Source of the DNA: Bacteroidales bacterium
GTDB taxonomy: Bacteria; Bacteroidota; Bacteroidia; Bacteroidales; UBA10428
Assembly (NCBI GenBank): GCA_016934395.1
Contig: JAFGSZ010000029.1
Coordinates: 1 to 38,819 of the forward strand
Direction: 5' to 3'
Length of the DNA: 38,819 bases
Both the position numbers and the translations under genes were made by a program. The notes beneath the pieces were generated by a model. That model searched no databases, was not told the origin of the DNA, and worked only from the letters and a program-made list of their open reading frames with translations. Shown here piece by piece: positions 4,909 through 32,560 of the stretch; within the stretch, counting starts at the first letter, position 1; each line of letters starts with the position of its first letter.

Positions 4909-5973
4909 ATGATTAAAACGATCTATAATAAGAACCAATATATCATTAACCTGTTAATCTTCAATATATTTTGGAATACGGTTAGAATAATACAGTGGAA
5001 GGAAATTCAACCGGAAAGGTTTTCGTTCATATTAAAATACATAACAATTGATTTTGTGATGGTATTAGCAATTTGCCTGCTTATGGTTTATATATACAAA
5101 TGGGCGGCAAACAAAAAACCGCTAGTAATACCGGTTGCTGTTTTTATCTGCTTTTCAATATTTTTTGCAGGATTGGTCATACCACTTGCAAATTCCGTTA
5201 AGGATTTTATATGGCCCGAGGGGATTTTATATAAAACTTCACTTGAGGTAATAAAGTCATCGTTCTATTATTATATCTGGTTTATTATCGCTTTTGGCGG
5301 AATATTTTATTTAACACGGTTCCGATTAATATATTTACAACAAAAGGAAGCCATCCTGAAAGCAGAATCCCTGGCAAAAGACACACAATTAAAAATGCTC
5401 CGGTATCAGATTAATCCACATTTTTTATTTAACATACTGAATTCACTTCATGCGCTTGTGGATGAAAACAAAAACATTGCAAAAAAACTAATTATATACC
5501 TTTCGGAATATTACCGGTTTACATTGGATAAACAAGTTCAAAAAAACTCAATAAAAAATGAAATCAGTATCATTGAAAAATATTTTGAAATTCAAAAAAT
5601 AAGATTTGAAGAAAACCTGGAGTATGAAATCACTGTGGATGAAAAAGCAAAATCCATTCAAATTCCATCATTCATTATCCATTTACTCGTTGAAAATGCC
5701 ATTAAATATGGTTTAAAGTGTTTCGAAAAAAAACTGGTCATTAAACTGAATATTATCCTGGATAAAAAAAAACTGTCCATTTCAGTTGTTAATTCGGGAA
5801 AATTAATTCCTGCTAAACAACATGCCACAGCTTTGAATGAAGGAACTGGCAGCGGCATAGAAAACATAAACAATCGTTTAAAATTATTCTATCAGGAAAA
5901 TTTTGCTTTTTCACTCCGTGAAGAAAACGATTGGGTAATAGCAAAAATAGATATTGACAAAAACGGTTTATGA
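4909..5973 (+). CDS. LytS-type sensor histidine kinase (His_kinase family)
   Basis: A 354-residue membrane kinase. Four hydrophobic segments lie at about 11-28, 43-62, 72-94 and 119-137, followed by a short coiled coil (140-162). The His_kinase signature QINPHFLFNILNSL carries phospho-acceptor His171, and a degenerate ATPase domain follows with the N box LLVENAIKYG and the glycine loop GTGSGIENINNRL. This is the Bacteroidota LytS/YpdA-like type, with no separate periplasmic sensor domain, so the signal probably acts in the membrane. The stop overlaps the start of the response regulator by 4 nt (ATGA), which shows translational coupling. Confidence 0.92.
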   Translation: MIKTIYNKNQYIINLLIFNIFWNTVRIIQWKEIQPERFSFILKYITIDFVMVLAICLLMVYIYKWAANKKPLVIPVAVFICFSIFFAGLVIPLANSVKDFIWPEGILYKTSLEVIKSSFYYYIWFIIAFGGIFYLTRFRLIYLQQKEAILKAESLAKDTQLKMLRYQINPHFLFNILNSLHALVDENKNIAKKLIIYLSEYYRFTLDKQVQKNSIKNEISIIEKYFEIQKIRFEENLEYEITVDEKAKSIQIPSFIIHLLVENAIKYGLKCFEKKLVIKLNIILDKKKLSISVVNSGKLIPAKQHATALNEGTGSGIENINNRLKLFYQENFAFSLREENDWVIAKIDIDKNGL

Positions 5974-6698
5974 ATGAAATTTCAACCATAATCATTGATG
6001 ATGAACGATTAGCCAGGGTTAATCTCAGAAAACTTTTAGAGCCCTTTACCCACATTATAATCGTTGGCGAAGCCGGTTCGTGCAAAGAGGCTATTCAATC
6101 GATAAACCTGAACCAACCCGAATTAATATTCCTGGATATCCAACTGATGGGTGAAACCGGATTTGATTTGCTGGATAAAATAAACTCCGGAATACAGGTT
6201 ATTTTTGTAACCGCTTATGATGAATATGCTATTCGTGCTTTTGAGATGAATGCCCTGGATTACCTGTTAAAACCTGTAAATCCGGAACGATTAAAAAAAA
6301 CTATCGAACGGATATCCATCCCCTCAACTAAAAATAGATTTTCGAACAGGAAGTTTAATTACAACGACGCTGTTTATGTAAATCTAAATAGTAATACTTC
6401 AAAATTTCTGAGAATACGTTCGATCATATATATCAAGCCTGTTGGCAATCATACAAAGCTTATGACAAATGAAAAAATAAATTGCGTGGTTTTAAAAACC
6501 CTGAAGCAGTGGGAAGATGAATTGCCTGAAGAAAATTTTATACGTATTCATCGTTCAACCATCGTAAATATTGAGTATATCATCAGAATCGAGAAATACT
6601 CAACAGCCTGCCACCGAGTATATTTAAAAAATGTTACCGAACCCTTTGAGATTAGCAGAAGGTTCCTGACGCAATTAAAGGGAAATTATAAAATCTGA
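5970..6698 (+). CDS. LytTR family response regulator
   Basis: A 242-residue protein with a receiver domain (5-115) and a LytTR DNA-binding domain (about 140-240). Receiver landmarks are IIIDDERLA at the N-terminus, phospho-acceptor Asp56 in LIFLDIQL, Thr81 in FVTAYDEYAIRAFE and Lys101 in YLLKPV. The LytTR domain shows FIRIHRSTIVNIEYI and EISRRFL. Such regulators bind pairs of short direct repeats about two helical turns apart; a set of this kind sits directly after this gene (6703-6756), so a likely target is the PD40 lipoprotein gene at 6895. Partner kinase: the overlapping gene upstream. Confidence 0.93.
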   Translation: MNEISTIIIDDERLARVNLRKLLEPFTHIIIVGEAGSCKEAIQSINLNQPELIFLDIQLMGETGFDLLDKINSGIQVIFVTAYDEYAIRAFEMNALDYLLKPVNPERLKKTIERISIPSTKNRFSNRKFNYNDAVYVNLNSNTSKFLRIRSIIYIKPVGNHTKLMTNEKINCVVLKTLKQWEDELPEENFIRIHRSTIVNIEYIIRIEKYSTACHRVYLKNVTEPFEISRRFLTQLKGNYKI

Positions 6699-6702
6699 AT
6701 TT

Positions 6703-6756
6703 ACCGCCTATATCACGGTTTTGCCGCTTATCATCTTTTTATACCGCTTATCATTT
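6703..6756 (+). promoter_or_regulatory. Putative LytTR operator: three direct repeats with 20-nt period
   Basis: Three copies of CCGCYTAT(A)TCA begin at 6704, 6724 and 6744, exactly 20 nt apart: ACCGCCTATATCA, GCCGCTTATCATC and ACCGCTTATCATT, counted from the base before each core. They lie between the response regulator stop and the next gene, about 13 nt upstream of a TTTG (6767-6770) that may be a -33 box, with a weak -7 (TATGATCA, 6791-6798) 20 nt further. The geometry suits activation by a LytTR dimer. Binding itself is inference. Confidence 0.6.
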
Positions 6757-6894
6757 TCAAATTGCTTTTGCTGGATTTTGTTTCTTTTTTTATGATCAAC
6801 AAAACTTTACACAATTACTATTATTCATCCTGTAAAACAAATATTGTTTGAATATATTTTTAAAAATATTCAGCAAAACTTAAAACCAATCAAT

Positions 6895-8091
6895 ATGACT
6901 AAGTATGTATTTATTGCAGCTGCCTTATTTCTTATACTGGCTTGTAACAGGCATACCGGTTATGAATATTTTGGTCAAACTCCTCCCGGCGATACACCTG
7001 AAATTTTTGCTCCGGGTATTATCTCTCTCGATAACCGGAATGAAAGTATGATAACCTTTTCTCCCGATGGCAAACAATGCTATTTTACCGTGAGCGAGAA
7101 ACCCTGGAACGATGTTCGGATTATGGAATCGGTGTATAAAAAAAGCGTGTGGACTACACCAGAAATTGCACCGTTTATCAGCAATTATGCCATGTGCCCC
7201 AGTATTTCATCCGATGGTACAAAACTCTTTTTTATCAGTTCGTATAAGGGCGCCAGTGCTGGCGTTAACCAGTGCCAGCGTACTGCTAACGGGGACTGGT
7301 CTGCACCTGCGGAAATGGACAGCCTGATCAATTCCGGGTTTAATGAGTATAGTTGTCACCTTTCCAGTAGGGGTACCATGTATGTTTGTTCCTGGCGTTC
7401 CGGTGGTGCAGGCGGCTGCGATGGCTGGCGTATTCCTTCAGTAGATGGGCAGTTTCAGAAAGCGGAAAACCTTGGTGCGCTGAATTCTAAAGTCGGTGAT
7501 TGTCTTTGGGCACCCGGACCGGATGAGGAATATCTTATCTTTCAATCCCGCCGTCCGCCCACTGGAAACGCCGGTGGCTTTTTTGAAACTGATCTGTTTA
7601 TAACCTTCGCTTTACCAGGGGGAGAATGGTCAGCACCCCAAAACCTGGGATCCGAAATAAACAGCGATTCAACAGATGGTTTCGCCTGGATATCGCATGA
7701 TGGTGAATATCTCTTTTTCTCCAGCAACCGCAGTGGATCATATGATATTTACTGGGTACGCCTTGATTCGGTGTTAAAAAACACCCCTAAAATTCCGTTA
7801 ACAGCTGAAATTCAGGAGCCCGATGATTATGTGTTTTATCAAAAGTTTGACTTTAAAACTAGCCTGCATTTTGATTTGAAAAAACCCGGATACACAAAAC
7901 TGACTATTTATAATCTGGCTGGTGAAAAAATAAATACAATACTTGATGAGTACAGGCTGGCTGGCGAAAATGAATTTGTTTGGGAAGGTGACGGGTATCG
8001 CAAAGGAAAATATATTTGTGCGTTACAACTTAGTGAAGAAAAAGCTGGAAAACCATATTTGGAAACGGCAATACAAGTATTGTTGCGGTAG
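6895..8091 (+). CDS. PD40/TolB-like beta-propeller lipoprotein
   Basis: Start taken at the ATG at 6895, not the in-frame TTG at 6844, because it puts a clean lipoprotein signal first (FLILAC, Cys17); 398 residues. The centre has WD40-like PD40 blades, each with S-x-DG-x-x-hydrophobic-F: FSPDGKQCYFT, SSDGTKLFFIS, APGPDEEYLIFQS and ISHDGEYLFFSSNRSG. The final 85 residues (YTKLTIYNLAGEKI to GKYICALQL) resemble a FlgD-like Ig fold. It is a surface or periplasmic lipoprotein; propellers of this type usually bind protein or glycan partners. The probable operator upstream places it under the LytTR system, so it may be that system's output or part of its sensing. Confidence 0.82.
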   Translation: MTKYVFIAAALFLILACNRHTGYEYFGQTPPGDTPEIFAPGIISLDNRNESMITFSPDGKQCYFTVSEKPWNDVRIMESVYKKSVWTTPEIAPFISNYAMCPSISSDGTKLFFISSYKGASAGVNQCQRTANGDWSAPAEMDSLINSGFNEYSCHLSSRGTMYVCSWRSGGAGGCDGWRIPSVDGQFQKAENLGALNSKVGDCLWAPGPDEEYLIFQSRRPPTGNAGGFFETDLFITFALPGGEWSAPQNLGSEINSDSTDGFAWISHDGEYLFFSSNRSGSYDIYWVRLDSVLKNTPKIPLTAEIQEPDDYVFYQKFDFKTSLHFDLKKPGYTKLTIYNLAGEKINTILDEYRLAGENEFVWEGDGYRKGKYICALQLSEEKAGKPYLETAIQVLLR

Positions 8092-16458: not shown

Positions 16459-17919
16459 ATGAAAAATATAGTGTTACTCTTTCTTATTATTTCATTAAAC
16501 AGCTATGGACAAAATGAACTTTCGGAAGGATTTAAAAAAACGGCTGTTAAAATTGGCGATACACGGTTTGAGCTATACAAGGGCAAAATTAAAGTAAAGA
16601 TAAACCGTGCCGACTCTGCTTCGGGTTATTTATCGCTCCCGATATTTATTTATAAGTCACCTTCCGAAACACCCGCCGAACCTATTGTATACATGTCTGG
16701 CGGTCCGGGGCAGACGAATTTTGATCATGTGCCACCCGGGAAATTTCTGGCAAACCATGATTATATTTTTATCGGGTACAGGGGTGTGGACGGGTCTGTA
16801 CAGTTAAAATCGAAGAAATTAAACAGGTCGATGAAAGGGCGTCATTTTAAGTTGATGAGTGACGAGTCACTGGATTACATGGGTTCCTGCATGCAAGAGT
16901 ATTTAAAAGATATCACCGGGCGGGGAATTGATATCAGCAATTATACAATGATCGATGTAATTGATGACTTTGAGGAAGTAAGAAAGCTGTTGGGATATTC
17001 AAAAATAAATTTATACAGTGCAAGTTATGGCACCCGGGTGGCCCTCTTGTACAGCTACCGATATCCCGATGTAATAAAACGTTCGCTAATGGTTGGGGTA
17101 AACCCGCCCGGGCACTTTGTCTGGTGGCCCGAAAATACGGAGCGTATTATAAAAAAGTACGATTCCATCTACGCAACTCAATCCAACGGTGATAATATAT
17201 CAATTGAAGAGAGCATCAGGCTGGCATTTTTACATATGCCTGCACGATGGTCATTCTTCAGGCTGGATGCAGATAAAATTAAGGCTGCATCATTTTTATT
17301 GCTGTATGGTAAATCAAGTGCAGTTATGGCATTTGATGCATACCGGAATGCTGCCCTGAAAAAGGACTACAGCGGTTTATACCTGATGCAGCTGGCCTAT
17401 GATTATCTGGTCCCTAAAAAGATGGGTGCAATGGGTGATTGTATAAGCAAATCTGCAAGCGCCGATTTTGATCCGGAATTAAATTACAGGCAGTTATTCC
17501 GTCCGGATAGTCTTACGATCGGAGCGCCGATGTCTATGCTCACTTGGGGAGGGTTTGGTATTCTCCCGATAAAAATGATAGATGAAGAATACCGGAAGCC
17601 GCGAATCAGCTTAACCGAAACACTTATGATCAGCGGAAATCTTGATAATACAAACCCTTCGGAAATTGCTAGGGAAAAACTTTTACCCTGGTTACCTAAT
17701 GGGAAGCAAATAATTCTGAAAGATATGTCACATTGCGGCGATCTTATGTGGCTGCAACGTGATGCTTATAAACACATGGTGTTACGATATTTCGACGAAG
17801 GTATTGTGGATACTTCATTATTCAGGCACGACCCGGTTTCTTTTGAGCCCAAAAAAAGCTTTAACAAAATGGCGAAAGTATATTATCCTGTTGTGTTTTT
17901 AGGGAGCCTTATCTATTGA
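16459..17919 (+). CDS. Secreted alpha/beta hydrolase, S33 peptidase-like
   Basis: A 486-residue protein with a signal peptide (IVLLFLIISLNSYGQ). The core has the S33/TAP-type oxyanion motif MSGGPGQTN (79-87) and the nucleophile Ser189 in LYSASYGTRVALLYSYRYP. A likely acid lies in SGNLDNTNPSEIA and a likely base in DMSHCGDLMW near the C-terminus. Members of this group act as aminopeptidases on short peptides (prolyl or tripeptidyl) or as esterases; the exact substrate cannot be read here. Only 6 nt separate it from the preceding gene, so it is cotranscribed with the redox module although no functional link is known. Confidence 0.85.
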   Translation: MKNIVLLFLIISLNSYGQNELSEGFKKTAVKIGDTRFELYKGKIKVKINRADSASGYLSLPIFIYKSPSETPAEPIVYMSGGPGQTNFDHVPPGKFLANHDYIFIGYRGVDGSVQLKSKKLNRSMKGRHFKLMSDESLDYMGSCMQEYLKDITGRGIDISNYTMIDVIDDFEEVRKLLGYSKINLYSASYGTRVALLYSYRYPDVIKRSLMVGVNPPGHFVWWPENTERIIKKYDSIYATQSNGDNISIEESIRLAFLHMPARWSFFRLDADKIKAASFLLLYGKSSAVMAFDAYRNAALKKDYSGLYLMQLAYDYLVPKKMGAMGDCISKSASADFDPELNYRQLFRPDSLTIGAPMSMLTWGGFGILPIKMIDEEYRKPRISLTETLMISGNLDNTNPSEIAREKLLPWLPNGKQIILKDMSHCGDLMWLQRDAYKHMVLRYFDEGIVDTSLFRHDPVSFEPKKSFNKMAKVYYPVVFLGSLIY

Positions 17920-17963: not shown

Positions 17964-19220
17964 ATGCCTGGCGTTCTAATGAATGAAATAAATAAAAAAA
18001 ACTTTAGACGGATGAAAAAACGTAAAAAACGGTTGATTGTTCTTTTGGTTTTTTTAATGATTACAATAGTTTTGATACTTATCAAGCCCAGGGCTCCTCA
18101 ACCGCCAAATTCTGTTAAAACGGTTGCCGGACTTGAAGCTTACCTGGAAAATCTTGCGGATTTTGGGATTCCTCCCGGTATGACCCTGGTAGTGGTTAAA
18201 AATGATAGTATTATTTACAGCAAAGGTTTTGGCTGGGCAGACATGCCGAAGAAGATCCCTGCCACACCTGAAACAGTGTATCATTGGTTTTCCATCACTA
18301 AAATAGCCACCGCCATTGCAATTCTTCAGCTTCAGGAACAGGGAAAGTTACAACTGGATGATTCTGTGGCAAAAATTCTCCCTTTTTTTAACGTGCAATA
18401 TCCCTCTGCAACAAGCAGGGCAGTTTCGATACGGAATCTCCTGAACCACAGTTCCGGCTTACCTGATCCCATGTTTCGTCTGCTTAGATGGATTCATTAT
18501 GAAGGAGATCCGCCTGTTAACCAGACGGCCCTGGTGAAAAAAGTACTTCCTGATTATTCAAAGCTAATTTTTGAACCCGGAGAAGATACAAAGTACTCCA
18601 ACTTTGGTTATATGGTATTGGGGGCAATTATAGAGAAATTAACAAACCAGAGTTATGAAAATTATATCAGACAGAATATTTTGGAAACGCTTGGAATGAA
18701 TCATACGGATTTTGTATATACCAAAGAAATGGAAGCCCTTGAAGCGGCAGGTACAAATCCCGTATTTGATTTCTCTGCCCTTGCTGTTCCCTTTGTAAAA
18801 GGATCTCTCGGGTCTGGGATTTCCGGAAAAAATATATGGTTTAAACGTTTTTACAACGACCAGACACCGCCGAGCGGACTAATCGGATCTGCGACAGATG
18901 CTGCGCGTCTGGCTATGGCGTATTTGAATAAAGGCGAGTTGAACGGCTGGCGTATACTTACGGAACAATCCGTTACTACCATGACCCGTGAAAGTCATAT
19001 CAAAAAAAAGAACAAGCCGGATTCTAATCGTGAACAGGGAATCGGCTGGCAGGTCCATAACAAAGATGAATTAATGCCTGAGCATACCGGGGGTGGTCTG
19101 GCATTCCATACCATGATGCGGCTTTACCCTGATAAAAACCTCGGATTTATTCTGTTTACAAATAGTACAAAGAGAGAAGCCAGGAGAATTTTAAATTTGG
19201 CTGCTACTTTAGACTGGTAA
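17964..19220 (+). CDS. Serine hydrolase, beta-lactamase/S12 family (membrane anchored)
   Basis: A 418-residue protein whose start is uncertain: ATGs at 17964, 17979 and 18012 are all in frame, and the last leaves a basic MKKRKKR before the single membrane anchor (LIVLLVFLMITIVLILI). The penicillin-binding-like fold shows all three motifs: Ser110-Ile-Thr-Lys113 (SxxK), Tyr211-Ser-Asn (YxN) and His374-Thr-Gly in EHTGGG. It faces the periplasm. The class includes esterases, D-aminopeptidases and cell-wall enzymes; it is not evidence of beta-lactam resistance. It follows the S33-type hydrolase by 44 nt and is probably in the same operon. Confidence 0.88.
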   Translation: MPGVLMNEINKKNFRRMKKRKKRLIVLLVFLMITIVLILIKPRAPQPPNSVKTVAGLEAYLENLADFGIPPGMTLVVVKNDSIIYSKGFGWADMPKKIPATPETVYHWFSITKIATAIAILQLQEQGKLQLDDSVAKILPFFNVQYPSATSRAVSIRNLLNHSSGLPDPMFRLLRWIHYEGDPPVNQTALVKKVLPDYSKLIFEPGEDTKYSNFGYMVLGAIIEKLTNQSYENYIRQNILETLGMNHTDFVYTKEMEALEAAGTNPVFDFSALAVPFVKGSLGSGISGKNIWFKRFYNDQTPPSGLIGSATDAARLAMAYLNKGELNGWRILTEQSVTTMTRESHIKKKNKPDSNREQGIGWQVHNKDELMPEHTGGGLAFHTMMRLYPDKNLGFILFTNSTKREARRILNLAATLDW

Positions 19221-21667: not shown

Positions 21668-22717
21668 TTAGATCTTAATAATTTTTATAATTTTTATCAT
21701 TTCAAGATTTTGAATAATAATAAAATATATCCCAGCTTTTAAAAAAAAAAGATCAATATCAATAGTTGACTTGCAAAGCTTATTCCGCGATATTAGAATT
21801 TTGCCGTAAATGTCAGCAACCGATAATGAATACTCTTTTAAATATTCCAATCCTGATAAATGCAGATTATCTCGCACAGGATTGGATGAAATAATAATAT
21901 TTTCGTTTTGTAATACACGTGTTTCAACATCAGTATATTCTTTCTGGTATACACGAACATAGTCAATTTCATATCGCTGAGGAAAAACGGATTCGTCAAC
22001 GCCCTCTGCTCCACCCCAGTTTCCGCCAACGGCAAAATTTAAAATAATATAAAATTCCTTATCAAAGGGCCAGTACTGCCAGTCGCGGCCGGCACGCCTG
22101 TAACTTCCGAAAAGGTATTCATCAACATACCATCTTATTGTGTCAGGATCCCATTCTATGGCATATATATGAAAATCATTTTCAACACCATAATAGGTGA
22201 TTGAATTTGAAACACCACTTGATCCAAAGTTTTGATATGTGTGAACTGTACCATGAACTTTGTCGGGCATGTATCCCACATATTCCATAATATCAATCTC
22301 GCCATTATCCGGCCATAAACTTGTTCCGTAAACCTGGTTTTGCGGCATCATCCAGAAAGCCGGCCAGGTACCGGCGCCCTGCGGCAGTTTTGCCCGCATT
22401 TCAACCCGCCCGTATCTCCAGTAGGCTTTGTTCCTAGTTTGCATTCGGGCAGAGGTATAATTATAGCCGTTATACACTTCTTTTATTGCAGTAATTACAA
22501 GTTTGCCTTCTTCAATAATAGCATTTTCAGGTCTGCTTGTATAGTATTGAAGTTCATTATTTCCCCAGCCGTTATTACCGTTGCCGATCTCAAAATTCCA
22601 GTTGGAGACATTTACCGTATCCAAATCAAATTCATCTGCCCATACCATCTGGTAATCCTGTGCATTGCCAACTGCTGAAAAACAGATAATAAAAATCAGG
22701 TATATTATTTTTTTCAT
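21668..22717 (-). CDS. GH16 beta-glucanase (laminarinase-like) with T9SS sorting domain
   Basis: A 349-residue protein with a signal peptide (LIFIICFSAVGNAQ). The GH16 jelly-roll spans about 22-255: WADEFD, WGNNELQYYT, YGRVEMRAKLPQGAGTWPAFWMMP and the catalytic motif GEIDIMEYVG with Glu140 (nucleophile), Asp142 and Glu145 (acid/base). The extra residue in ExDxME marks the laminarinase/lichenase type; FYIILNFAVGGNWGG and YEIDYVRVYQ close the domain. Residues about 270-345 are a type IX secretion C-terminal domain (IIISSNPVRDNLHLSG, KAGIYFIII), so it is sent to the cell surface or medium, with an unusual repetitive Ile/Lys tail. Last gene of the SusC/D operon. It probably cuts beta-1,3 (or mixed) glucan outside the cell. 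Confidence 0.93.
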   Translation of the reverse strand: MKKIIYLIFIICFSAVGNAQDYQMVWADEFDLDTVNVSNWNFEIGNGNNGWGNNELQYYTSRPENAIIEEGKLVITAIKEVYNGYNYTSARMQTRNKAYWRYGRVEMRAKLPQGAGTWPAFWMMPQNQVYGTSLWPDNGEIDIMEYVGYMPDKVHGTVHTYQNFGSSGVSNSITYYGVENDFHIYAIEWDPDTIRWYVDEYLFGSYRRAGRDWQYWPFDKEFYIILNFAVGGNWGGAEGVDESVFPQRYEIDYVRVYQKEYTDVETRVLQNENIIISSNPVRDNLHLSGLEYLKEYSLSVADIYGKILISRNKLCKSTIDIDLFFLKAGIYFIIIQNLEMIKIIKIIKI

Positions 22718-22755
22718 TAAAAAGTATTTATAATAGATTCATGTATTCAATTAAA

Positions 22756-22790
22756 TTGTGTGCTCTGTAAGAAAATCACAGAGCACACAA
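22756..22790 (-). promoter_or_regulatory. Strong 13-bp stem-loop between the PKD lipoprotein and GH16 genes
   Basis: TTGTGTGCTCTGT (22756-22768) and ACAGAGCACACAA (22778-22790) pair perfectly around a 9-nt loop. It lies inside the 118-nt gap in the operon. No T run follows on the minus strand, so it looks more like an RNA-stability or partial attenuation element than a full terminator. Confidence 0.55.
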
Positions 22791-22835
22791 TATCAAAATT
22801 CAACCTTTTATTTAGGGTTTCTGAGTCTGGTAATA

Positions 22836-24320
22836 TTATTCTAAGGCAAAATCGTCAAAATAAAATGTACCGTCACCTTTGTTTGCTCCTTCATCACCAA
22901 ACTGCACTATAATTTTATCATAATTCTCGTTTGTGGCCACTTCACTGAAATCAAAAGTCAGTTCCACCCAGCTATCATCGGTAACATCCTGAATTTTTCG
23001 TTCAGTTTGTGTTTGCCAGGCATTTCCACCCATTTTTGAATCCTGTAATTTTACGGCAACAGTTTTAACTGCAGTAGCAGCATCAACATAAACTTTCATC
23101 TTAAACACATTGCGTGTTGACAGATTCATTCTGAAGGGCAATTCAAACTGAATATTTGCATAATCCTGGGTACCACGAACATATTTGGCTACCTTGGCAG
23201 AAGTGTTTATTCCGCCTGATGCAGGATTATCAAAATTTTCATCAAATAAGGCAGGGCTGTTGTCTTCTACCCAGGTAATATTTACGGCTTCATCATCAAA
23301 ATTATCCGAAATATCATTTGTTTCCAATGGCTTTTCAACAATAACTTCAATTTCATCGTCCGGAATCTGTGATACATCTTTATAGGCAACAAGTGTAATA
23401 CGTCCGATCTGTGGACCCCGTGCCTGATCAACTCCATTTTCATTTCCTCCCCAGGGTGTAAAAAGAACCAGGGTATCAGGCTGATCACCCCCATCTGCAT
23501 AATGATAAACTTCATAAAAAGTTTCTTCTGCAGGTTCATCTACCACTAATTCAGTACCGGTGTCCATGGGGCCAAAATGACCGCCTTTACCTTTCAGTAC
23601 AATACGTCCGAAATCACAGTCGGCGTAAAACGACGCATTTTGTATTTCATACGTCAGGCTGCTGTTATTTCCCCATGTGCTGCAGTCTTTCCCTCCCAGG
23701 CTTATCCAGCTTGTTGCATCCGGCCATCCTTGCGGATCAGGAGTTTCCCCAAAAAATGCTCCGGGACGCAGAGTCCAGCCTTCAGTTTTAAATTCAAAGG
23801 ATCCATCGGGTTTAAAAATATACTGATGGTGCCTGATTGTATTTCTGAGATCAACAGGTAATGAATGGTTTTTTGTCCATGAATACCACCAGTCATTATA
23901 ATTATCAGGATTTAACATCACAACTCCTGCATCAAATTCCAGCCTCCATATTTTTCCTGTGGCTTCATCTCCACCGAGAAACTGTTGAAAGGTCATACCG
24001 GAAATGGTTACATCCTTAGAACTTAAATCCGTAACATCTCCGTTTATTGCTACAAGAGTTATGGTAAAGGTGCCTGTACTGGAATAGGTATATGAGAATG
24101 CCGTGTCACTCTGTGTTCCCGTATTCCCATCACCAAAATTCCACTCGTAAGTCAGGGCTTCTTCCGAGTCGTTTTTAATATTTACTTTAAATCCGTCATA
24201 TTCATCATTTGCAACGGTGAACCTGGATTTTACTTCCGGATCCGGTGGCCCATCGTCATCCTTTTTACAGCCAATTAACAGGCTTATGGAAACTAATAAT
24301 AATAAAATTGATTTTTTCAT
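22836..24320 (-). CDS. PKD-domain surface glycan-binding lipoprotein (SusE/F position)
   Basis: A 494-residue lipoprotein: lipobox LLIGC, Cys18, followed by KKDDDGPPD, an acidic stretch resembling the Bacteroidota lipoprotein export signal. Residues about 32-110 form a PKD domain (YEWNFGDGNTG, FSYTYSSTGTFTITL). The middle (115-330) contains GKIWRLEFDAG and YIFKPDGSFEF, as in surface proteins of beta-glucan loci. The last 150 residues (NFDDEAVNITW to GTFYFDDFALE) look like a carbohydrate-binding jelly-roll. It sits 16 nt after susD and before GH16, the usual place for a surface glycan-binding protein, so it probably holds laminarin-like chains for SusC/D and GH16. Confidence 0.85.
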   Translation of the reverse strand: MKKSILLLLVSISLLIGCKKDDDGPPDPEVKSRFTVANDEYDGFKVNIKNDSEEALTYEWNFGDGNTGTQSDTAFSYTYSSTGTFTITLVAINGDVTDLSSKDVTISGMTFQQFLGGDEATGKIWRLEFDAGVVMLNPDNYNDWWYSWTKNHSLPVDLRNTIRHHQYIFKPDGSFEFKTEGWTLRPGAFFGETPDPQGWPDATSWISLGGKDCSTWGNNSSLTYEIQNASFYADCDFGRIVLKGKGGHFGPMDTGTELVVDEPAEETFYEVYHYADGGDQPDTLVLFTPWGGNENGVDQARGPQIGRITLVAYKDVSQIPDDEIEVIVEKPLETNDISDNFDDEAVNITWVEDNSPALFDENFDNPASGGINTSAKVAKYVRGTQDYANIQFELPFRMNLSTRNVFKMKVYVDAATAVKTVAVKLQDSKMGGNAWQTQTERKIQDVTDDSWVELTFDFSEVATNENYDKIIVQFGDEGANKGDGTFYFDDFALE

Positions 24321-24336
24321 TTTAGCTTTATTTTAG

Positions 24337-25860
24337 TTAATAATTCGGATTTTGCAAAAGCAGATTATTTAAATTAATTTCTGTTTCAGGTATGGGGAAA
24401 AGATCATGTTTCCCTGTTTCAAAGGGCATCATATAATCTGTTATCGCTACAGATTCGTTTTCACGGTAGGCGTTCATAACCTGTTCGGCAATGCCCCATC
24501 TTACCAGGTCAAAAAACCGGTGGCCTTCCATCGCCAGTTCTACCCTTCGTTCGTGCCGTATGGCATCCCTCAGGTCTTCCTGGTTGTCAGTATAGCTGCC
24601 ATAGGGAAATGCCGGCAAAACAGAAGGATTGTTATTACGGGCCCGCAACCTTACTCTCTCGAGCGCTGCTTTGGCTGCCGGAAGATCATTGATTTCACAG
24701 GCAGCTTCAGCGTACATCAGCAAAACATCGGAAAACCGTATAACTTTTTGATTTAACGGGCCCCTTGTAGGATGTGCAAGAGTATAACCCTCCAGGGCAT
24801 ATTTCCTGCTGTGATAGCCATTCCCAAGGTACAGGTCTCCGTCGGGTCCGGTTATTGTGGCATTTCTCCTTGGATCTCCGCTTTCAAATTCATTTAGAAG
24901 GTCAACTGTGGGCCGGTTAAATCCCCAGCCTAGTGAGCCAACCCTGGTTCGCTGCATGATAATGATAAATGTACCGCGGGTATAGCCGTTACCATCCCCG
25001 TAGTCGCTGGTAGGTTCTTCCATGTATTGGACTTCAAATACGGATTCCGTCCCATTTTCTCCAGCCAGTGAAAAATTGGATGAAAAACCCGGCTCAAGAT
25101 CATACTCCCCGGATAAAATTACCGAATCACCCCAGGCTTTTGCTTTGGTCCATTCCTGATTATACAAATAAGCCTTCATTAAAAGAGCTTGCGCTGCCCC
25201 CTTAGTGGCCCTTCCCAAATCTTCATCAGCATAAAGACTTTTCAGCCACAGACCTGGTATGGCGGATTCAAGATCGTTGTAAATCAGCGAATAAATAGTA
25301 TCCCGCAGTGCACGGGGTTGTTTGTATTCCGAAGGATCGAGGGTGAGGGTAATTTTAGGAATACCCCCAAAAACGCGTACAAGACGAAAATAATAATATG
25401 CCCTGAGAAATTTTGCTTCAGCTACGAGCCTGTTTTTTAGTGATATATCCATGGTCTCATCAGGCTGAATTTCAGGAATCTTGTTTATGGCCAGATTACA
25501 CCTGTAAATTCCCTGATATTGTGCCCTGTAGAATTCCAGTAAAACTTCGTTGCTAGGAGTGGCAGTAAAATTTTCAAGAAGAAACAAATCGTTCATATCA
25601 TTTATATTATTACCCCCTTTCAGAGCATCATCCGATACCACATCGCCCAGCATCCATTCATTAAAATAGGTATGATTAAATTCCCATTCCAGTGGAACAT
25701 ACGCGGCGTTAACAGCCAGAACAGCATCATTCCCGGTTTTATAAAAATTTTCAATTACAGTGTCCACAAGGGGTTCCTTATTGAGAAAATCTTCAGAACA
25801 GCTAGTAATCACCACCAGTGAAGCGATTATTAATAAATATTTTTTCTCCATTTTATTCAT
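24337..25860 (-). CDS. SusD/RagB family nutrient-binding outer-membrane lipoprotein
   Basis: A 507-residue lipoprotein: lipobox VITSC, Cys21, then SEDFLNKEPLVD, the classic SusD opening. TPR-like helices in the N-terminal half include LVAEAKFLRAYYYFRLVRVFGGIP, and the C-terminal half has the conserved ending region RHERRVELAMEGHRFFDLVRWG and LFPIPETEINLN. A second in-frame ATG 9 nt downstream could also be the start. It forms the lid of the SusC channel and binds glycan at the cell surface. 12 nt after susC, hence cotranscribed. Confidence 0.96.
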   Translation of the reverse strand: MNKMEKKYLLIIASLVVITSCSEDFLNKEPLVDTVIENFYKTGNDAVLAVNAAYVPLEWEFNHTYFNEWMLGDVVSDDALKGGNNINDMNDLFLLENFTATPSNEVLLEFYRAQYQGIYRCNLAINKIPEIQPDETMDISLKNRLVAEAKFLRAYYYFRLVRVFGGIPKITLTLDPSEYKQPRALRDTIYSLIYNDLESAIPGLWLKSLYADEDLGRATKGAAQALLMKAYLYNQEWTKAKAWGDSVILSGEYDLEPGFSSNFSLAGENGTESVFEVQYMEEPTSDYGDGNGYTRGTFIIIMQRTRVGSLGWGFNRPTVDLLNEFESGDPRRNATITGPDGDLYLGNGYHSRKYALEGYTLAHPTRGPLNQKVIRFSDVLLMYAEAACEINDLPAAKAALERVRLRARNNNPSVLPAFPYGSYTDNQEDLRDAIRHERRVELAMEGHRFFDLVRWGIAEQVMNAYRENESVAITDYMMPFETGKHDLFPIPETEINLNNLLLQNPNY

Positions 25861-25872
25861 TATTTTGCCGGA

Positions 25873-28800
25873 TTATAAGTTTAATGTCAAACCAACAATA
25901 AAGGTTCGTGCCTGGGGATACGTTCCCCTGTCGACACCATAATCTAAAGTACCGGTGTAACCGATCTCAGGATCAAAACCGGTATATTTTGTAAATGTGA
26001 GCAGGTTGGTACCGGATACATAAATTCTTAAAGCCGAAACACCTGCTTTTCCGGTAATTTTATTATTGAATGTATAACCCAACTGGGTATTTTTTAACCT
26101 GAGATAACTCCCGTCCTCAATATAGCGGCTGGATGCTTTAAGATTTGCCGCACTTCCTTCCGGATCCGGAAGCGTATTTGATGATCCTTTCCCGCTCCAG
26201 GCATTTACCATATCACTTTCCAGATTTGTATAGCCTGTACCCTGAGTAAAATATTTGTTGCAATTAAATATTTTATTACCGTATACACCCTGAAAAAATA
26301 ATTGCAGGTCGAAGCCTTTGTATTCTGCGCTTGCATAAAATCCATAGGTAAGACTTGGATAAGGATTACCCAGGTTGATTTTATCGTTTTGATCAATTTT
26401 ATTGTCATCGTTCTGATTCACAAACCTGAAATCACCCGGCTTTGCACCCGGCTGGATCATTTGTCCCAATGAATTTACATGTTCTTCTACTTCATAATTA
26501 TCCTGGAATATGCCGTTTGTCTGATATCCGTAAAATGCTCCGACCGGATCACCGACTCTGGTACGTGTAAGATATTCTCCAAAAAATGAAGCCTCGTAAA
26601 TATCTTCCCCGCCACCGAGTGATAAAACTTCATTTTTTAAGGTAGCAAAGTTTCCACCTATTGTATAAAACAGGTTTCCTACCTTATGCTTAAATTCGGC
26701 AGAAAATTCAAACCCCTGGTTGCGTATGCTTCCTGCATTTACAAAGGGAAATTGCCGCAATCCAACATTCCCGGGAACCGGAATGGCTACAAGCATATCC
26801 TTGGTATCTTTAATATAATAATCTCCGGACAGCGATAATTTGTTGTTCAGCATTGAAATATCAATACCTGCATTGGTTTGCTCTGTGGTTTCCCATTTTA
26901 TATCATTATTGGCAATGCTTAGCGGCGCGGCGCCGGTTGCAAGGGCCGGAGTATCACCGAAAACATAGCTTACGAATGTTGTTCCTGCATTTATGCGAGT
27001 AGTAAATGCATAATTACCGATTTCCTGGTTGCCGATCCTTCCCCAGCCCCCCCGGATCTTTACCGAGTTAAAATATTCCTTCATATTATGGAAAAACTCT
27101 TCTTCACTGAGTTTCCATCCTAGAGCCAGTGACGGGAAAGACCCCCATTTATTATTCTTCCCGAACCTTGACGATCCGTCTCTGCGAATATTAAAAGTTA
27201 ACAGATATTTGTTATTATAAACATAATTGATCCTGCCGAGATAGGATAATATCGACCATTCCCATCCGGTACCCCCGATTGTCGGATTTTGCGTTGCTGC
27301 ATCAAGGTACCACAGATTGGGACTTTCGTTTGGCAAATCGGTTTTACTTCCCCCGAGGTAATCATAATCACTTTCCTGTGCGGTCATCCCGATCAGCATT
27401 GTAACATCATGTTTTAAAGCAATAGTGTTTTTATAGGTAAGTGTATTTTCCAACAACCACATGGTATACCTTTCATAATTATGCTCAAGGAAATTATTTG
27501 GCATATTATCATTGGCTGAAATATAATATTCAGGTTTAAAATTCCCGCCCTCGCCATACGAAACATCAGTACCTAGATTTGACCTGAAAATAAGATCGGG
27601 AAACAGGGTAATATCCGCATAAACGTTCCCTACAATGCGGTTCCAAGTATCATGCGGATTCTCCAGTTCTACCATACTAAGCGGATTTTTAAGATTAGTG
27701 GTAGTAGAAGGAGTTATTCTGCCATCGGGATACCTTACCGGGTCCCAGGGTGCAAGTGAAATCGCACTGTTAAGCACTGAATAATTTTCATTATTTGTGG
27801 CAACCCCCCTGTTTTTGGAGTTATTTAATGAAATGTTTTCGCCAATTTCCAGGTATTTTGTAAGCTCATGTGATGAATTTACCCTGAATGTAAATCGTTT
27901 ATAATTTGAAGAAATAATGATCCCTTCCTGGTCAAAATATCCCAGGCTGATTGCATAATTGCTGTTTTCATTTCCTCCGTCAAAAGAGAGATAATAATTG
28001 CTGATTCTTGCATTTTTCTTAAAAACCACATCCTGCCAGTCGGTATCGTAATTTTCATAATTAATATCGGCAGGAATATAGGGATTTATGGAAAGGTTAA
28101 AGGTATTGTAAACCCACGTTGAAAAATCCCCGTCGTCAGAAGTATACCCTTTAAAAGCGGCATATTGCTCCCGGTTCATCAGGTCGAGTTTGTTCCATCG
28201 GTTTTGAATACCCGTATACATTTCAAACCGGGTATTCATTTTGTTCATAGCGCCTTTGCGGGTTGTTACAAGGATTACGCCATTTGCACCACGGGAGCCG
28301 TAAATAGCAGCTGCTGAGGCATCTTTAAGGATTTCTATCGACTGTATGTCGTTGGGGTTTAAATAATTTATATTATTCAATAAAACCCCGTCTACCACGT
28401 AAAGAGGACTGCTGTTATTTACTGTACCTATTCCTCTTACCCTTATTGTCATCTCACTTCCGGGTTGCCCCGAATTTGCGGTTACCATTACTCCGGAGGC
28501 GCGTCCCTGAAGGGCCTGGTCAATTCCTGAAACAGGTGTCTGCGTTATTTTTTCGGATGAAACAGATATTACTGAACCGGTAATGTCACTTTTTTTCTGA
28601 GTGCCGTATCCAATAACATACACCTGCTCAATATTTTCAAATTCTGGTTCAAGTAAAACATCCATTTTCATATCGGAATTAATAATATGTTCCTGGCTTA
28701 AAAAACCTACATAGCTGAATATTACGGTATCCGCATGAGCAATTGTAAGTTCATATTTACCTTCCCTATCTGAAACGGTTCCCGAAGTGGTTCCTTTTAC

Positions 28801-28932
28801 CAGAATACTCACTCCTACAAGGGGACCGTTATCTTCAGCTGAAACAACAACTCCTTTTATAGTATGTTCCTGTGCATGGCTACTTAAAACCCACACAGTG
28901 ATGATTAAAAAAAGGAAAAGAATTTTTCTCAT
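25873..28932 (-). CDS. SusC/RagA family TonB-dependent outer-membrane transporter
   Basis: A 1019-residue protein with a signal peptide (FLFLIITVWVLSSHAQ). An N-terminal carboxypeptidase-regulatory-like domain (IKGVVVSAEDNGPLVGVSI to GKYELTI, about 23-95) is followed by the TonB-box/plug region with VYVIGYGTQKKSDITGSV and the SusC signature IEILKDASAAAIYGSRGANG. The remainder is a 22-strand barrel ending RTFIVGLTLNL with a terminal hydrophobic residue. No extra sigma-regulator (STN) domain is visible. It imports oligosaccharides, here probably beta-1,3-glucan fragments, with TonB energy. First gene of the operon, with a good promoter at 29033-29002. Confidence 0.97.
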   Translation of the reverse strand: MRKILFLFLIITVWVLSSHAQEHTIKGVVVSAEDNGPLVGVSILVKGTTSGTVSDREGKYELTIAHADTVIFSYVGFLSQEHIINSDMKMDVLLEPEFENIEQVYVIGYGTQKKSDITGSVISVSSEKITQTPVSGIDQALQGRASGVMVTANSGQPGSEMTIRVRGIGTVNNSSPLYVVDGVLLNNINYLNPNDIQSIEILKDASAAAIYGSRGANGVILVTTRKGAMNKMNTRFEMYTGIQNRWNKLDLMNREQYAAFKGYTSDDGDFSTWVYNTFNLSINPYIPADINYENYDTDWQDVVFKKNARISNYYLSFDGGNENSNYAISLGYFDQEGIIISSNYKRFTFRVNSSHELTKYLEIGENISLNNSKNRGVATNNENYSVLNSAISLAPWDPVRYPDGRITPSTTTNLKNPLSMVELENPHDTWNRIVGNVYADITLFPDLIFRSNLGTDVSYGEGGNFKPEYYISANDNMPNNFLEHNYERYTMWLLENTLTYKNTIALKHDVTMLIGMTAQESDYDYLGGSKTDLPNESPNLWYLDAATQNPTIGGTGWEWSILSYLGRINYVYNNKYLLTFNIRRDGSSRFGKNNKWGSFPSLALGWKLSEEEFFHNMKEYFNSVKIRGGWGRIGNQEIGNYAFTTRINAGTTFVSYVFGDTPALATGAAPLSIANNDIKWETTEQTNAGIDISMLNNKLSLSGDYYIKDTKDMLVAIPVPGNVGLRQFPFVNAGSIRNQGFEFSAEFKHKVGNLFYTIGGNFATLKNEVLSLGGGEDIYEASFFGEYLTRTRVGDPVGAFYGYQTNGIFQDNYEVEEHVNSLGQMIQPGAKPGDFRFVNQNDDNKIDQNDKINLGNPYPSLTYGFYASAEYKGFDLQLFFQGVYGNKIFNCNKYFTQGTGYTNLESDMVNAWSGKGSSNTLPDPEGSAANLKASSRYIEDGSYLRLKNTQLGYTFNNKITGKAGVSALRIYVSGTNLLTFTKYTGFDPEIGYTGTLDYGVDRGTYPQARTFIVGLTLNL

Positions 28933-29001
28933 AGGTGTTTTTGTGGTTAGCGGTTTAGATAATATTTACAAATAAATATTTACAGGTTATTATCCTTACT
29001 T

Positions 29002-29033
29002 CAAATCTAAGGTTTGAAAACGGTGAAGGCAAA
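29002..29033 (-). promoter_or_regulatory. Promoter of the SusC-SusD-PKD-GH16 operon
   Basis: On the minus strand TTTG (29033-29030), a 20-nt spacer and TAGATTTG (29009-29002) match the Bacteroidota consensus fully. The start should lie near 28995, about 63 nt before the susC ATG. The regulator gene ends 110 nt upstream, so the regulator probably binds between 29034 and 29146. Confidence 0.62.
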
Positions 29034-29121
29034 AGGAGAGATACTTTTTGATTTTTGGGTGAATACGTTTTAACTACGTTTTTTTTACAATTTTTCAATA
29101 ATTCTGAAAACCGGAAGATAA

Positions 29122-29145
29122 AACATATATTTTTTCAGATATGTT
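29122..29145 (-). terminator. Weak hairpin directly after the regulator gene
   Basis: AACATAT (29122-29128) pairs with ATATGTT (29139-29145) around a 10-nt loop just past the regulator's stop codon; it is all A-T except one pair. Termination is uncertain. Confidence 0.25.
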
Positions 29146-29146
29146 A

Positions 29147-32011
29147 TCACAACCGGAGTATAAAATCATTCAGATTATCAGTCTGTTCAAGCCCCATTCT
29201 TTTTCTGATCCTGAACCTGGCTGTTTCCACCCCTCGTATTGACATATTCAGTATCTGGGCAATTTCTTTAGTTGAAAGATTCATTCTTAAGTACGCACAT
29301 ATTTTAAGGTCTGAATGCGACAAATCGGGATATAACTCTTTAAGTTTTTGAATAAAATTATTATTTGCCTGATCGAACCTGAGTTCAAAATCTTCCCAAT
29401 GGTCATCTTTTAATTCTTTTTCAATAAAATGTTTAATCGAATCCAACTGATTGTTAAATTCCATCTTTGTTTCAGGGCTGATGTTTTCGAGAAGCTTTTT
29501 TATCTCGAGCATTTTTTCGTTTTTATAAATAATCTTCATGGCAGAAGCTGCCAGTTCTTTGTTTTTATTTTCCAGATCAATCATTAATCTTTCCTCATGA
29601 TATTTAATCTGATCTATTTCACGCGCTTTTTCCTGCTCTTCAATAATTTTCTTTTTCTCCTGCTCAAAATGCCTGGTTTTTAACCTGAAGAATATCCATA
29701 TAATCAAAAATGCGACCAGGATATACATTGAATAAGCTACAGTCTTTTTATACCAGGGGGGCAGAATAGTAAACCTGAATACATTTTCTTTGGATTCCTT
29801 TTCATATACATTTTTTGCTTTGACATGAAAGGCATATCGTCCCGGTGATAAATTTGTAAATTCCCTGAATCGCGTGTCCGTCCAGTCCGACCATTCCTCA
29901 TCATATCCTTCCAGATAGCTCGCATAATCCGTCAGGCTAATGTTTTCATAATAACATGCGGTGTAATCAAACCTGATACTATGCTGGTTAAACGGAATTA
30001 CTACTTTCTTTACCTGTGTTGAATCCCCGAAGTAGGCAAGCCGTTCATCATACAATACTTCATGGTTTATCTGACTTGTAACACCTGTAATTAGCAAATT
30101 AAAATCATTATCAGGCTGAAAGGGTATCTGATAGTTAAAAAATACCAGACCGCTTTTTGTGCCGAATAATGCATTGCCATTTTCAAAAAAGAAAATATTT
30201 TCAAAACCTGGATAATAATCCAGCGACAGTTTTCTTGCCGGAACATTCAGAATGGAAAAAGAACCATCGGAATTCATGGTAAGAATCTTGGTTACCTCAC
30301 CGGCAATACACCATATTCTGCCCTGGGTATCTTGACGCATGTACTTTACCTGACCTGAAGTACCTAAAAGCGGGCCAAAAATGGGATGAACTACCACAGA
30401 ATCTGATTTTTTATCATATTTATAAACTCCATTCTGGGTTCCAAATATTATTTCGTCATTTATTTTAAAAACATTGATAAATAAATCAGATGGAAAACCC
30501 TTCCTGCTGTTATAAAAATGTACTTCTTTTATGGAATCGGCTGCCGCCGATAAAACGATTTTATATACTCCCTTTAAACCATGAGATATCCATATGTTGC
30601 CATCTTTGTCTTCTTCCGCAACACGGCTTGTTTCCGAAAATCCGGAAAGCTTCTTTACAAATTTCAGTGATTCCCCTTTTTTTCTAAACATTATCAGACC
30701 TTCGTAAGTTCCTGCCAATACGATTTCCGGATGCCTGCTTGGCCGTATTAATGTCCATACACCAATACCATTGAAAATATGATTTGCTTTATTAGTTGTG
30801 ATCTCATACAGGCCGTCCGCAGTGCAAAGGTAAAGTCGATCACCAAGTGTATCGAGTTTCCAGCATATATCTCCGGTACCCGGGATTTTATCAAAAGTAA
30901 GCTTCGACAACGAACGGTTCCAGGGGGCGCAGTATAATCCGGAATGTGAGCCTGCAAAAATTTTATCTTTAAAAAGAAATGAAGTGTATACAGAAAACGG
31001 ATTCTCAGGATCAATTGTAATATTATATAAGGGAGACGAAGCTTCTACAATGTCGATACCTTTTTCATTCAATATCCACCAGTTTCCAATCTTATCCTCA
31101 AAAACCTGTTTTATATGATTATGGCCCAGGCCATCTGATTTTGTTATGTGCTTATAGACCACTCCATTTCTGTCAAATACAATTAATCCCTTGTCTGTTG
31201 TACCGGCAAGAAACATACTATTATTTAAATGAATTCCGCATAAAAACCTGTTGTTGTTCAATATGGTTGTATCCGAAAGATAAAAAGGTGTAACCGACTT
31301 AAAATTATATTTCACCATTTTTCCATCATCAAAACCAATCAGCAGTTCATCATCAGTAAAACCGGTGATAAAAGCTATATTACGGTCTTTAAAAAATGAC
31401 CCCCCGGAAAGGCTTTCCAGGCTGTCGGCTTTTAATTCATATAACTCGTCTCCGTGTATAAAAATTCTATTGCCGACTTTAAAGCAGGATTTAAACGGAT
31501 GGGGGGTTTTTATAATTTTAAATGAACTTCCGTTGTATATAAACAAGGCATTCCATGAAAAAAATAAGATCCTGTTATTTATATTGAAGATTTTCCAAAT
31601 TGTGCCGAAATTCTGCTCCTGCCGGGGTAAAAGGTCTACAAGAGAATTCATGGCAATGCTGCCGTTTTCAGTATCAATAAATCCCATAAAATCCTGCCCC
31701 CCCACATACAACCTGTTGTGCCCAAATGCCAGTGAGCGGGTGATGCTGCGGTTCAGCGGAACCTGGATGATGCTCCAGTTACTTCCGTCAAATTCAAGTA
31801 TGCCATAATCGTTGGCAAAATACATTACCTGTCTCGAATCCTGAACAATATCCCAATTTTGATTCGATACCACAAAATCTTTTTCACTAAATGATGTTAT
31901 AAAGGGTATCCCGATCCTATAATCCTGGGAAAATAGCTGGGAAATCTGCAGGACAGGCAGGAAAAGTAAAATCAATTTCAGTACGAACAGCGGTTTTGAG
32001 ATAAACAACAT
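29147..32011 (-). CDS. SusR-like one-component regulator: beta-propeller, Y_Y_Y domain, membrane helix, LuxR-type HTH
   Basis: Start set at the ATG at 32011; the earlier in-frame TTG at 32038 is less likely because the signal sequence (LFVLKLILLFLPVLQISQLFSQ) follows the ATG directly; 954 residues. Residues 30-620 are propeller-type sensor repeats (FGTIWKIFNINNRILFFSW, YVGGQDFMGFIDTENG, NIWISHGLKGVY, RIWCIAGEV). A Y_Y_Y domain follows (FDYTACYYEN, YASYLEGYDEEWSDWT, LSPGRYAFHVKAKN), then one membrane helix (SMYILVAFLIIWIFF), a coiled coil, and a C-terminal LuxR-type HTH (LSHSDLKICAYLRMNLSTKEIAQILNMS). There is no kinase or receiver domain, so it senses oligosaccharide in the periplasm and binds DNA itself, as SusR does. 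Upstream of susC on the same strand. Confidence 0.92.
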   Translation of the reverse strand: MLFISKPLFVLKLILLFLPVLQISQLFSQDYRIGIPFITSFSEKDFVVSNQNWDIVQDSRQVMYFANDYGILEFDGSNWSIIQVPLNRSITRSLAFGHNRLYVGGQDFMGFIDTENGSIAMNSLVDLLPRQEQNFGTIWKIFNINNRILFFSWNALFIYNGSSFKIIKTPHPFKSCFKVGNRIFIHGDELYELKADSLESLSGGSFFKDRNIAFITGFTDDELLIGFDDGKMVKYNFKSVTPFYLSDTTILNNNRFLCGIHLNNSMFLAGTTDKGLIVFDRNGVVYKHITKSDGLGHNHIKQVFEDKIGNWWILNEKGIDIVEASSPLYNITIDPENPFSVYTSFLFKDKIFAGSHSGLYCAPWNRSLSKLTFDKIPGTGDICWKLDTLGDRLYLCTADGLYEITTNKANHIFNGIGVWTLIRPSRHPEIVLAGTYEGLIMFRKKGESLKFVKKLSGFSETSRVAEEDKDGNIWISHGLKGVYKIVLSAAADSIKEVHFYNSRKGFPSDLFINVFKINDEIIFGTQNGVYKYDKKSDSVVVHPIFGPLLGTSGQVKYMRQDTQGRIWCIAGEVTKILTMNSDGSFSILNVPARKLSLDYYPGFENIFFFENGNALFGTKSGLVFFNYQIPFQPDNDFNLLITGVTSQINHEVLYDERLAYFGDSTQVKKVVIPFNQHSIRFDYTACYYENISLTDYASYLEGYDEEWSDWTDTRFREFTNLSPGRYAFHVKAKNVYEKESKENVFRFTILPPWYKKTVAYSMYILVAFLIIWIFFRLKTRHFEQEKKKIIEEQEKAREIDQIKYHEERLMIDLENKNKELAASAMKIIYKNEKMLEIKKLLENISPETKMEFNNQLDSIKHFIEKELKDDHWEDFELRFDQANNNFIQKLKELYPDLSHSDLKICAYLRMNLSTKEIAQILNMSIRGVETARFRIRKRMGLEQTDNLNDFILRL

Positions 32012-32560
32012 TTGCTTTGTTTTTGGTGGTATAAGCAAACATAATTTGTGTGCATAAAAGTAGAAAAATTCATAATGAACACTATAGTTTTGTTAAAAAT
32101 TAAATTTCGGATTCTTTAAAAATCATTTTCATGAGAATCTGATGCTGTTCCTCTGCGTGGTTTTGAATACCTTATGCCATTTCAGAAGTACATCTTCGAT
32201 CTTAAAATATTTTATATCCAAAACTACCTATACAGGAAATAAAAATCATTTTATCTGTTATCCGGAAATTTTTTCTCCGGCAGCAAGATATTATGAACAA
32301 AATAAACAACCTTCAGCCTGTTTTAGTGTAATTACTTCGTTTTATTAAAATGGGGCATATTAAAGTTAATTAAACAAGTTTAAGGTCTTATTATTTTCTA
32401 AAACAGAATATTGAAGTTTTTTTGAATATCTCTTAAAAAGGTTATATTTATATGTCAACAAATATATTTCAACAGAGGTTTTTAGACAACCTTTCGTTAA
32501 CGGGCATTTTGTGATGTCTTCAATTATAAATGGAATTTTTAGACTATTAACTCATTAATT
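32012..32560. other. Gene-free divergent spacer
   Basis: About 550 nt of AT-rich DNA between the minus-strand regulator and a plus-strand lipoprotein gene. It contains the plus promoter at 32421-32450. An open frame at 32142-32348 has no signature and no good start and is left out. No clear promoter for the regulator was found. Confidence 0.45.
32421..32450 (+). promoter_or_regulatory. Probable promoter of the NTF2-like lipoprotein gene
   Basis: TTTG at 32421-32424, an 18-nt spacer, TATATTTA at 32443-32450, one base off consensus. The leader would be about 100 nt. Confidence 0.5.

Follow-up and report, generated by a model that had tools for sequence, protein, structure and literature searches.

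In Escherichia coli, the histidine kinase BtsS and the LytTR response regulator BtsR (YehU/YehT) act on a pyruvate transporter gene located elsewhere. The published BtsR motif is ACC[GA]CT[CT]A. The region upstream of btsT (yjiY) contains ACCGCTTA and ACCACTCA at a period of 21 nt, and by eye an imperfect GCCGCTCA lies 20 nt upstream of this pair (E. coli K-12, L268 3416–3464, minus strand). A second E. coli system, YpdA/YpdB-yhjX, also relies on a LytTR regulator with two direct repeats, which YpdB binds sequentially and cooperatively according to passages of PMC4847170. The same passages describe LytTR operators as 9–11-nt repeats separated by 11–13-nt spacers. Excerpts of PMC6193735, including its Table 3, place such repeats mostly 10–11 nt upstream of the promoter and indicate that the motifs of different LytTR regulators look alike. 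Also in those excerpts are the LRS systems, in which the regulator is paired with an inhibitory membrane protein and the repeats precede the system's own operon. Examples are ACCACTTAT-11-GCCACTTAT, 10 nt before the promoter, in Treponema bryantii, and TCCGGTATTCA-11-ACCGGAAATCA-11-TGTA-19-TATCTTTG in B. thetaiotaomicron.

We analyzed a direct-repeat array in a 38,819-nt stretch of DNA from a Bacteroidales bacterium (the window). This locus shares with BtsS/BtsR the combination of a kinase with a LytTR regulator, and its repeat core is matched by the btsT pair. It differs in period (20 instead of 21 nt), in its predicted target, a PD40 gene adjoining the regulator gene, and in the score of its regulator, which falls below the BtsR cut-off. 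With LRS operators it shares direct repeats of 9–11 nt, spacers of mostly 11–13 nt and a position mostly 10–11 nt before the promoter (PMC6193735). Unlike in LRS, the regulator is paired with a histidine kinase instead of a membrane inhibitor devoid of a kinase domain, and arrays of the window type stand mainly before other genes. The YpdB repeat GGCATTTCAT and its target, as given in the passages of PMC4847170, are different from those of the window. With 9-nt cores, 11-nt spacers and 10 nt before the −33 position, the window-type arrays fit the published geometry. This agrees with the proposal of a first-pass annotation that the repeats follow the LytTR pattern of direct repeats about two helical turns apart. 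Among the matches listed in the open-access literature for LytTR sites or regulons in Bacteroidetes/Bacteroidota and for LytTR together with PD40, the motif is not described. The only LytTR sites described for the phylum among these matches are the LRS-like Bacteroides repeats in the available parts of PMC6193735; the accessible passages of PMC5431176, PMC9504724 and PMC10653868 contain nothing useful on the motif, and those of PMC5552118 give no motif letters.

The repeat array and its gene neighborhood

All three copies are on the plus strand. Copy 1 (6703–6713, ACCGCCTATAT) starts 4 nt past the stop codon of the regulator gene and is followed by copy 2 (6723–6733, GCCGCTTATCA) and copy 3 (6743–6753, ACCGCTTATCA). 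Relative to the 11-mer of copy 3, which served as reference, copy 2 carries one mismatch and copy 1 three (8 of 11 letters agree). The exact 20-nt phase of three repeats noted in the first-pass annotation is present, since the 20-nt step occurs twice. Its consensus CCGCYTATCA describes copies 2 and 3 without mismatch and fails for copy 1, which reads CCGCCTATAT; the unit common to all three copies is [AG]CCGC[CT]TAT.

The frequency of such an arrangement was estimated by simulation, using a rule chosen with the array already in view (10-mers whose three pairwise comparisons together give at most four mismatches). Equal-phase triples with a period of 20–22 nt appeared in 1 of 150 order-1 and 2 of 150 order-2 Markov windows; for any period of 14–30 nt the corresponding counts were 2 and 0 of 150. 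For the 196-nt intergenic stretch, 0.04% of 20,000 simulations contained a triple at 20–22 nt. A chance triple is found in about 1% of simulated windows of the same make-up.

A scan of the window's genome for CCGCYTATCA-N8-14-CCGCYTATCA, as suggested earlier, returned a single exact match, at the array itself. A second convincing array beyond 6703–6753 was not found in this genome, and a search before the window's kinase gene returned none. No inverted repeat with both arms inside the array was listed; one weak pair places a single arm over copy 2. On the minus strand at 7059, inside the PD40 gene, there is a weak pair (20 nt, 6 of 22 mismatches) that is probably due to chance.

The sensor histidine kinase gene (4909–5973, plus strand; Pfam PF06580 His_kinase, 8.2e-23) encodes a protein with a hydrophobic N-terminal half, as judged by eye, so this kinase is probably located in the membrane. 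It shares 46% identity with its counterpart at the equivalent place in locus L129. The regulator gene (5970–6698, plus strand) encodes Response_reg (1.9e-21) and LytTR (3.3e-20) domains, both above the Pfam cut-offs. Because its start at 5970 overlaps the end of the kinase gene at 5973, the two form a complete two-component pair, and the earlier description as an orphan system does not apply. The best NCBIfam model for the regulator is BtsR (NF008677, equivalog), with a score of 156.1 bits where the cut-off is 246; by this score the protein is BtsR-like and not BtsR. Behind the array follows the predicted target (6895–8091, plus strand), a PD40 beta-propeller protein (Pfam PD40, 2.1e-13) that looks like a lipoprotein from its N-terminus (by eye) and shares 32% identity over 287 columns with the PD40 protein that follows the array in L232. 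The next gene encodes a DUF1565 protein (Pfam). Domains and coordinates thus agree with the placement first proposed, directly behind a LytTR regulator gene and upstream of a PD40 lipoprotein gene.

The gene content of the window also includes SusC/SusD and T9SS sorting domains, which together with the promoter boxes suggest Bacteroidota. On the minus strand, positions 21668–32038 hold a polysaccharide utilization locus with GH16, a PKD protein, SusD, a SusC-type TonB receptor and a Reg_prop/Y_Y_Y regulator (Pfam). A class-C beta-lactamase-fold gene is located at 17964–19220, similar to genes after arrays in L236 and, by eye, L235. The only pair before it is a weak one at 17598 (21 nt apart, 6 of 22 mismatches), which falls within the open frame preceding the gene.

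Co-conservation with one regulator clade

The first-pass annotation had named a lack of conservation at orthologous loci as one of the outcomes that would refute its reading. Across 393 genomes of the order, the listed matches closest to the regulator of the window are found in genomes G251 (59% identity), G330 (58%) and G150 (55% and 58%, the second truncated at a contig end), followed by G379 and G253 (49% each). All seven regulators that are at least 48% identical to that of the window are followed by two 11-mers exactly 20 nt apart, which end at most 63 nt past the stop codon. These seven come from six genomes, the window's own among them. Of the 112 LytTR regulators below 48% identity, only one has such a pair within 180 nt of its stop codon (Fisher p 1.4e-10, a value that ignores relatedness). 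The array is therefore conserved in orthologous loci.

These counts rest on 119 regulator places, obtained from 168 homologous frames by removing 17 that end short of query residue 200, two with too short a flank and 30 duplicates; they represent 89 clusters at 80% protein identity and leave out two regulator matches at 43–44% (G316:C87 and G316:C11). A pair was accepted with at most 6 of 22 mismatches, a spacing of 20 nt and a position within 180 nt after the stop codon. Binned by identity, pairs occur at 7 of 7 places at 47% or above, 1 of 11 at 42–47%, and 0 of 101 below 42%; two of these 101 have a pair at spacings other than 20 nt. We also inspected the 260 nt that follow the stop codon at 20 loci including the window, 18 of which were chosen by regulator similarity; the G251 locus came from a motif search, and two further stretches were selected for their arrays. 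For all seven regulators at 48% or above, the first copy starts 15–33 nt past the stop codon and the second ends by nucleotide 63. Among 13 regulators at 39–46%, one has a pair (L250, a TATCG variant).

A tree built from 40 of 107 regulator sequences unites the seven in one clade with support of 98/95 and places the regulator of L250 outside of it. Pairs with at most two mismatches occur in 7 of 393 genomes of the order, namely all six genomes with a clade member and G194 (p 1.4e-12). Genome G194 has arrays and no clade member; copies of the ACCGCTTATCG type stand at 20 nt on two short contigs that contain no LytTR gene (L132 3784–3834 and L133 1389–1419). They resemble the TATCG variant of L250. 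The L132 array, with three copies, is perhaps a tandem duplication because its two spacers are identical.

More distant relatives gave no comparable signal. Exact CCGCYTATCA pairs among 23 genomes of the family are limited to the window's own. No close ortholog of the regulator was found in the other 22, so their lack of pairs is uninformative. A GTDB 220 scan also returned no close ortholog (best match 42%), and among 99 relatives including the window's genome the best other regulator is 41% identical. In these two sets, allowing at most one mismatch per 8-letter copy, only one pair stands behind a regulator at 20–22 nt. At L137 5996–6024 (G061; the same place as L019), ACCGTTTACTT occurs twice at 21 nt, 137 nt past a different LytTR regulator gene, and is probably the own site of that neighboring regulator. 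Relatives across the class came from nine of 395 genomes, including the window's; the other eight (38–44% identical, all contained in the 119 places) lack a pair with 20-nt spacing. When repeats behind 83 regulators were sought de novo, there was no general excess at 20–22 nt (3, 1 and 0 cases) compared to 6 cases at 18 nt. The array is therefore a feature of this clade and not of LytTR genes at large.

A loose scan for ACCGYTTA-N7-19-ACCGYTTA matched 45 of 393 genomes, and reversed-pattern controls matched many genomes too. A LytTR gene was present in 5 of 20 stretches of the first set, mostly with a period of 20–21 nt, and in none of 35 stretches of the second. Only L129 and L137 were counted as regulator-adjacent; L131 was set aside because its pair falls within the open frame of the regulator itself, and L140 and L145 because the pair is more than a kilobase away.

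Promoter layout and downstream genes

Scanning the 393 genomes of the order for ACCGCTTATCA-N9-ACCGCTTATCA with at most three mismatches yielded 19 places in 13 genomes, against 8 matches in 8 genomes for the reversed pattern. Matches in G288, G405, G111, G053, G310 and G024, with three mismatches each, were treated as background. Fourteen arrays can be aligned free of gaps well past the last repeat. They follow the layout ACCGCTTATCA-N9-ACCGCTTATCA-N8-TTTG-N19-TTNCTTTG, or core-11-core-10-TTTG if expressed with the 9-nt core ACCGCTTAT. TTTG stands 8 nt past the array in 9 of the 14 and at offset 35 also in 9, with both present in 7. Passages of PMC7366714 give the Bacteroides sigma-ABfr promoter consensus as TTTG near −33 and TAnnTTTG at −7. 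The relatives' promoters approach this consensus, mostly with T in place of A in the −7 box.

The window itself compares poorly. Its conserved −33 position (6762–6765) reads TTGC, and its −7 position (6785–6792), which ends in TTTG in 9 of the 14 promoters, reads TTTTTTTA and is weak. The first-pass annotation had assigned the −33 element to a TTTG 13 nt downstream of the array. This TTTG does exist at 6767–6770; since the relatives place theirs 8 nt after the array, we dropped the assignment as probably wrong. The distance from array to start codon is 142 nt for the window's PD40 gene, compared to 62–74 nt in L129, L232, L234 and L237 and 105 nt in L235. Judging from these boxes and the long leader, the window's promoter may be weak and strongly dependent on an activator, or shifted, or decayed.

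The annotation had also suggested cooperative binding at three sites. A third upstream copy with at most three mismatches is limited to 3 of the 14 arrays, that of the window (20 nt) and both arrays of L233 (21 nt), and thus to 2 of the 7 regulator-adjacent ones. Cooperativity of a triple site is therefore not a conserved feature. Nor would a third copy be peculiar to the window's system, since the imperfect third copy upstream of the E. coli btsT pair is of the same kind.

A propeller-type gene follows 9 of the 14 aligned arrays. In L232, L234 and the window, the first gene behind the regulator-adjacent array encodes a PD40 protein. Its counterpart in L129 is PD40-related, with 18.9 bits where the Pfam cut-off is 20.9, whereas L237 has a Kelch protein and L235 a CarboxypepD_reg protein in this place. 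In L233 (G150, 5873–7647), the array precedes a class I lanthipeptide precursor (NCBIfam lant_leader_L1a) and a LANC-like gene; this lanthipeptide is a possible regulated peptide product. Additional arrays occur elsewhere in the same genomes. Two arrays of G251 are on contigs other than that of the regulator: L130, where the first gene encodes a protein paralogous to that of L129 (43% identity; counted with L129 among the propeller-type genes), and L236, where an SBBP propeller is followed by class-C and metallo-beta-lactamase-fold genes. G253 carries an array on another contig before a receiver-only protein (L238). In G379, an array about 6 kb away on the same contig (L235, at 5179) precedes an SBBP propeller, and in G150 one about 1.9 kb away (L233, at 5745) precedes a Kelch protein. 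In G330, an array at 8290 of L232 is followed 56 nt further on by the sensor kinase gene itself, the only case of an array before the kinase gene.

Alternative explanations and proposed mechanism

From these comparisons, we consider it highly probable that the array is the activator operator of the adjacent BtsR-like LytTR regulator and that it controls the PD40 lipoprotein gene. Several observations count against this operator reading. The window has poor boxes (TTGC and TTTTTTTA), the −7 box of the relatives has T for A, and the window's leader is longer than those of the relatives. In the other 22 genomes of the family, neither the exact array nor a close regulator ortholog was found, the window's genome offers one convincing array and none before the kinase gene, and arrays occur with an out-of-clade regulator (L250) or in a genome that has no clade member (G194). 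Chance or neutral tandem duplication can hardly be the origin of the array. The triple alone would be expected at the simulated frequency given above, but the spacers differ in sequence, genomes of five families retain the copies together with their 20-nt phase, and the distribution of the pair (7/7 versus 1/112) and the clade tree contradict this origin.

With 11 LytTR matches in the window's genome, and with the similarity of LytTR motifs noted at the outset, the array could in principle serve another of that genome's LytTR paralogs. We judge this very unlikely, because the array tracks a single regulator clade and LytTR regulators L239, L240 and L248 of the same genomes have no array behind their genes. 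It is somewhat easier to imagine, though still improbable, that the adjacent regulator binds and represses, or that the array serves a promoter placed unlike those of the relatives, for example nearer to 6895. The weak boxes and the long leader of the window would suit such a model. In the relatives, however, the array sits upstream of the −33 box, the place of a LytTR activator, with an N8 spacing in 9 of 14 cases, and in L129, L232, L234 and L237 the next gene is again of the propeller type (the L129 PD40 match being below the Pfam cut-off).

For an activator operator, the following mechanism can be proposed. The kinase (4909–5973) would sense a signal and phosphorylate the regulator (5970–6698). 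The LytTR domains of the activated dimer would then bind the two good repeats, which are predicted to share one face of the helix at a distance of about two turns, directly upstream of the −33 region. The bound regulator would recruit RNA polymerase and thereby promote transcription of the PD40 lipoprotein gene (start at 6895), possibly with the weak third copy as an auxiliary site.

A LytTR switch of this kind is known; what is new is the defined motif together with a regulator clade and a list of targets. Whether this amounts to a regulon is a more evenly balanced question. It could equally well be true or false that the BtsR-like clade, found in six genomes from five families of the order, uses a single rigid layout (two 11-mers at 20 nt, N8, TTTG, N19 and TTNCTTTG) to control a small regulon of exported beta-propellers (PD40, Kelch and SBBP), joined by serine and metallo-beta-lactamase-fold hydrolases and, in a single genome, by a lanthipeptide. 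LytTR regulators are numerous in these bacteria, and a conserved candidate operator, a clade and a short list of targets are now joined. This makes gel shift and reporter tests straightforward and offers a way to approach the propellers of the PD40, Kelch and SBBP types. If the regulon is real, it would tie an undescribed signal to the deployment of surface or T9SS-exported propellers.
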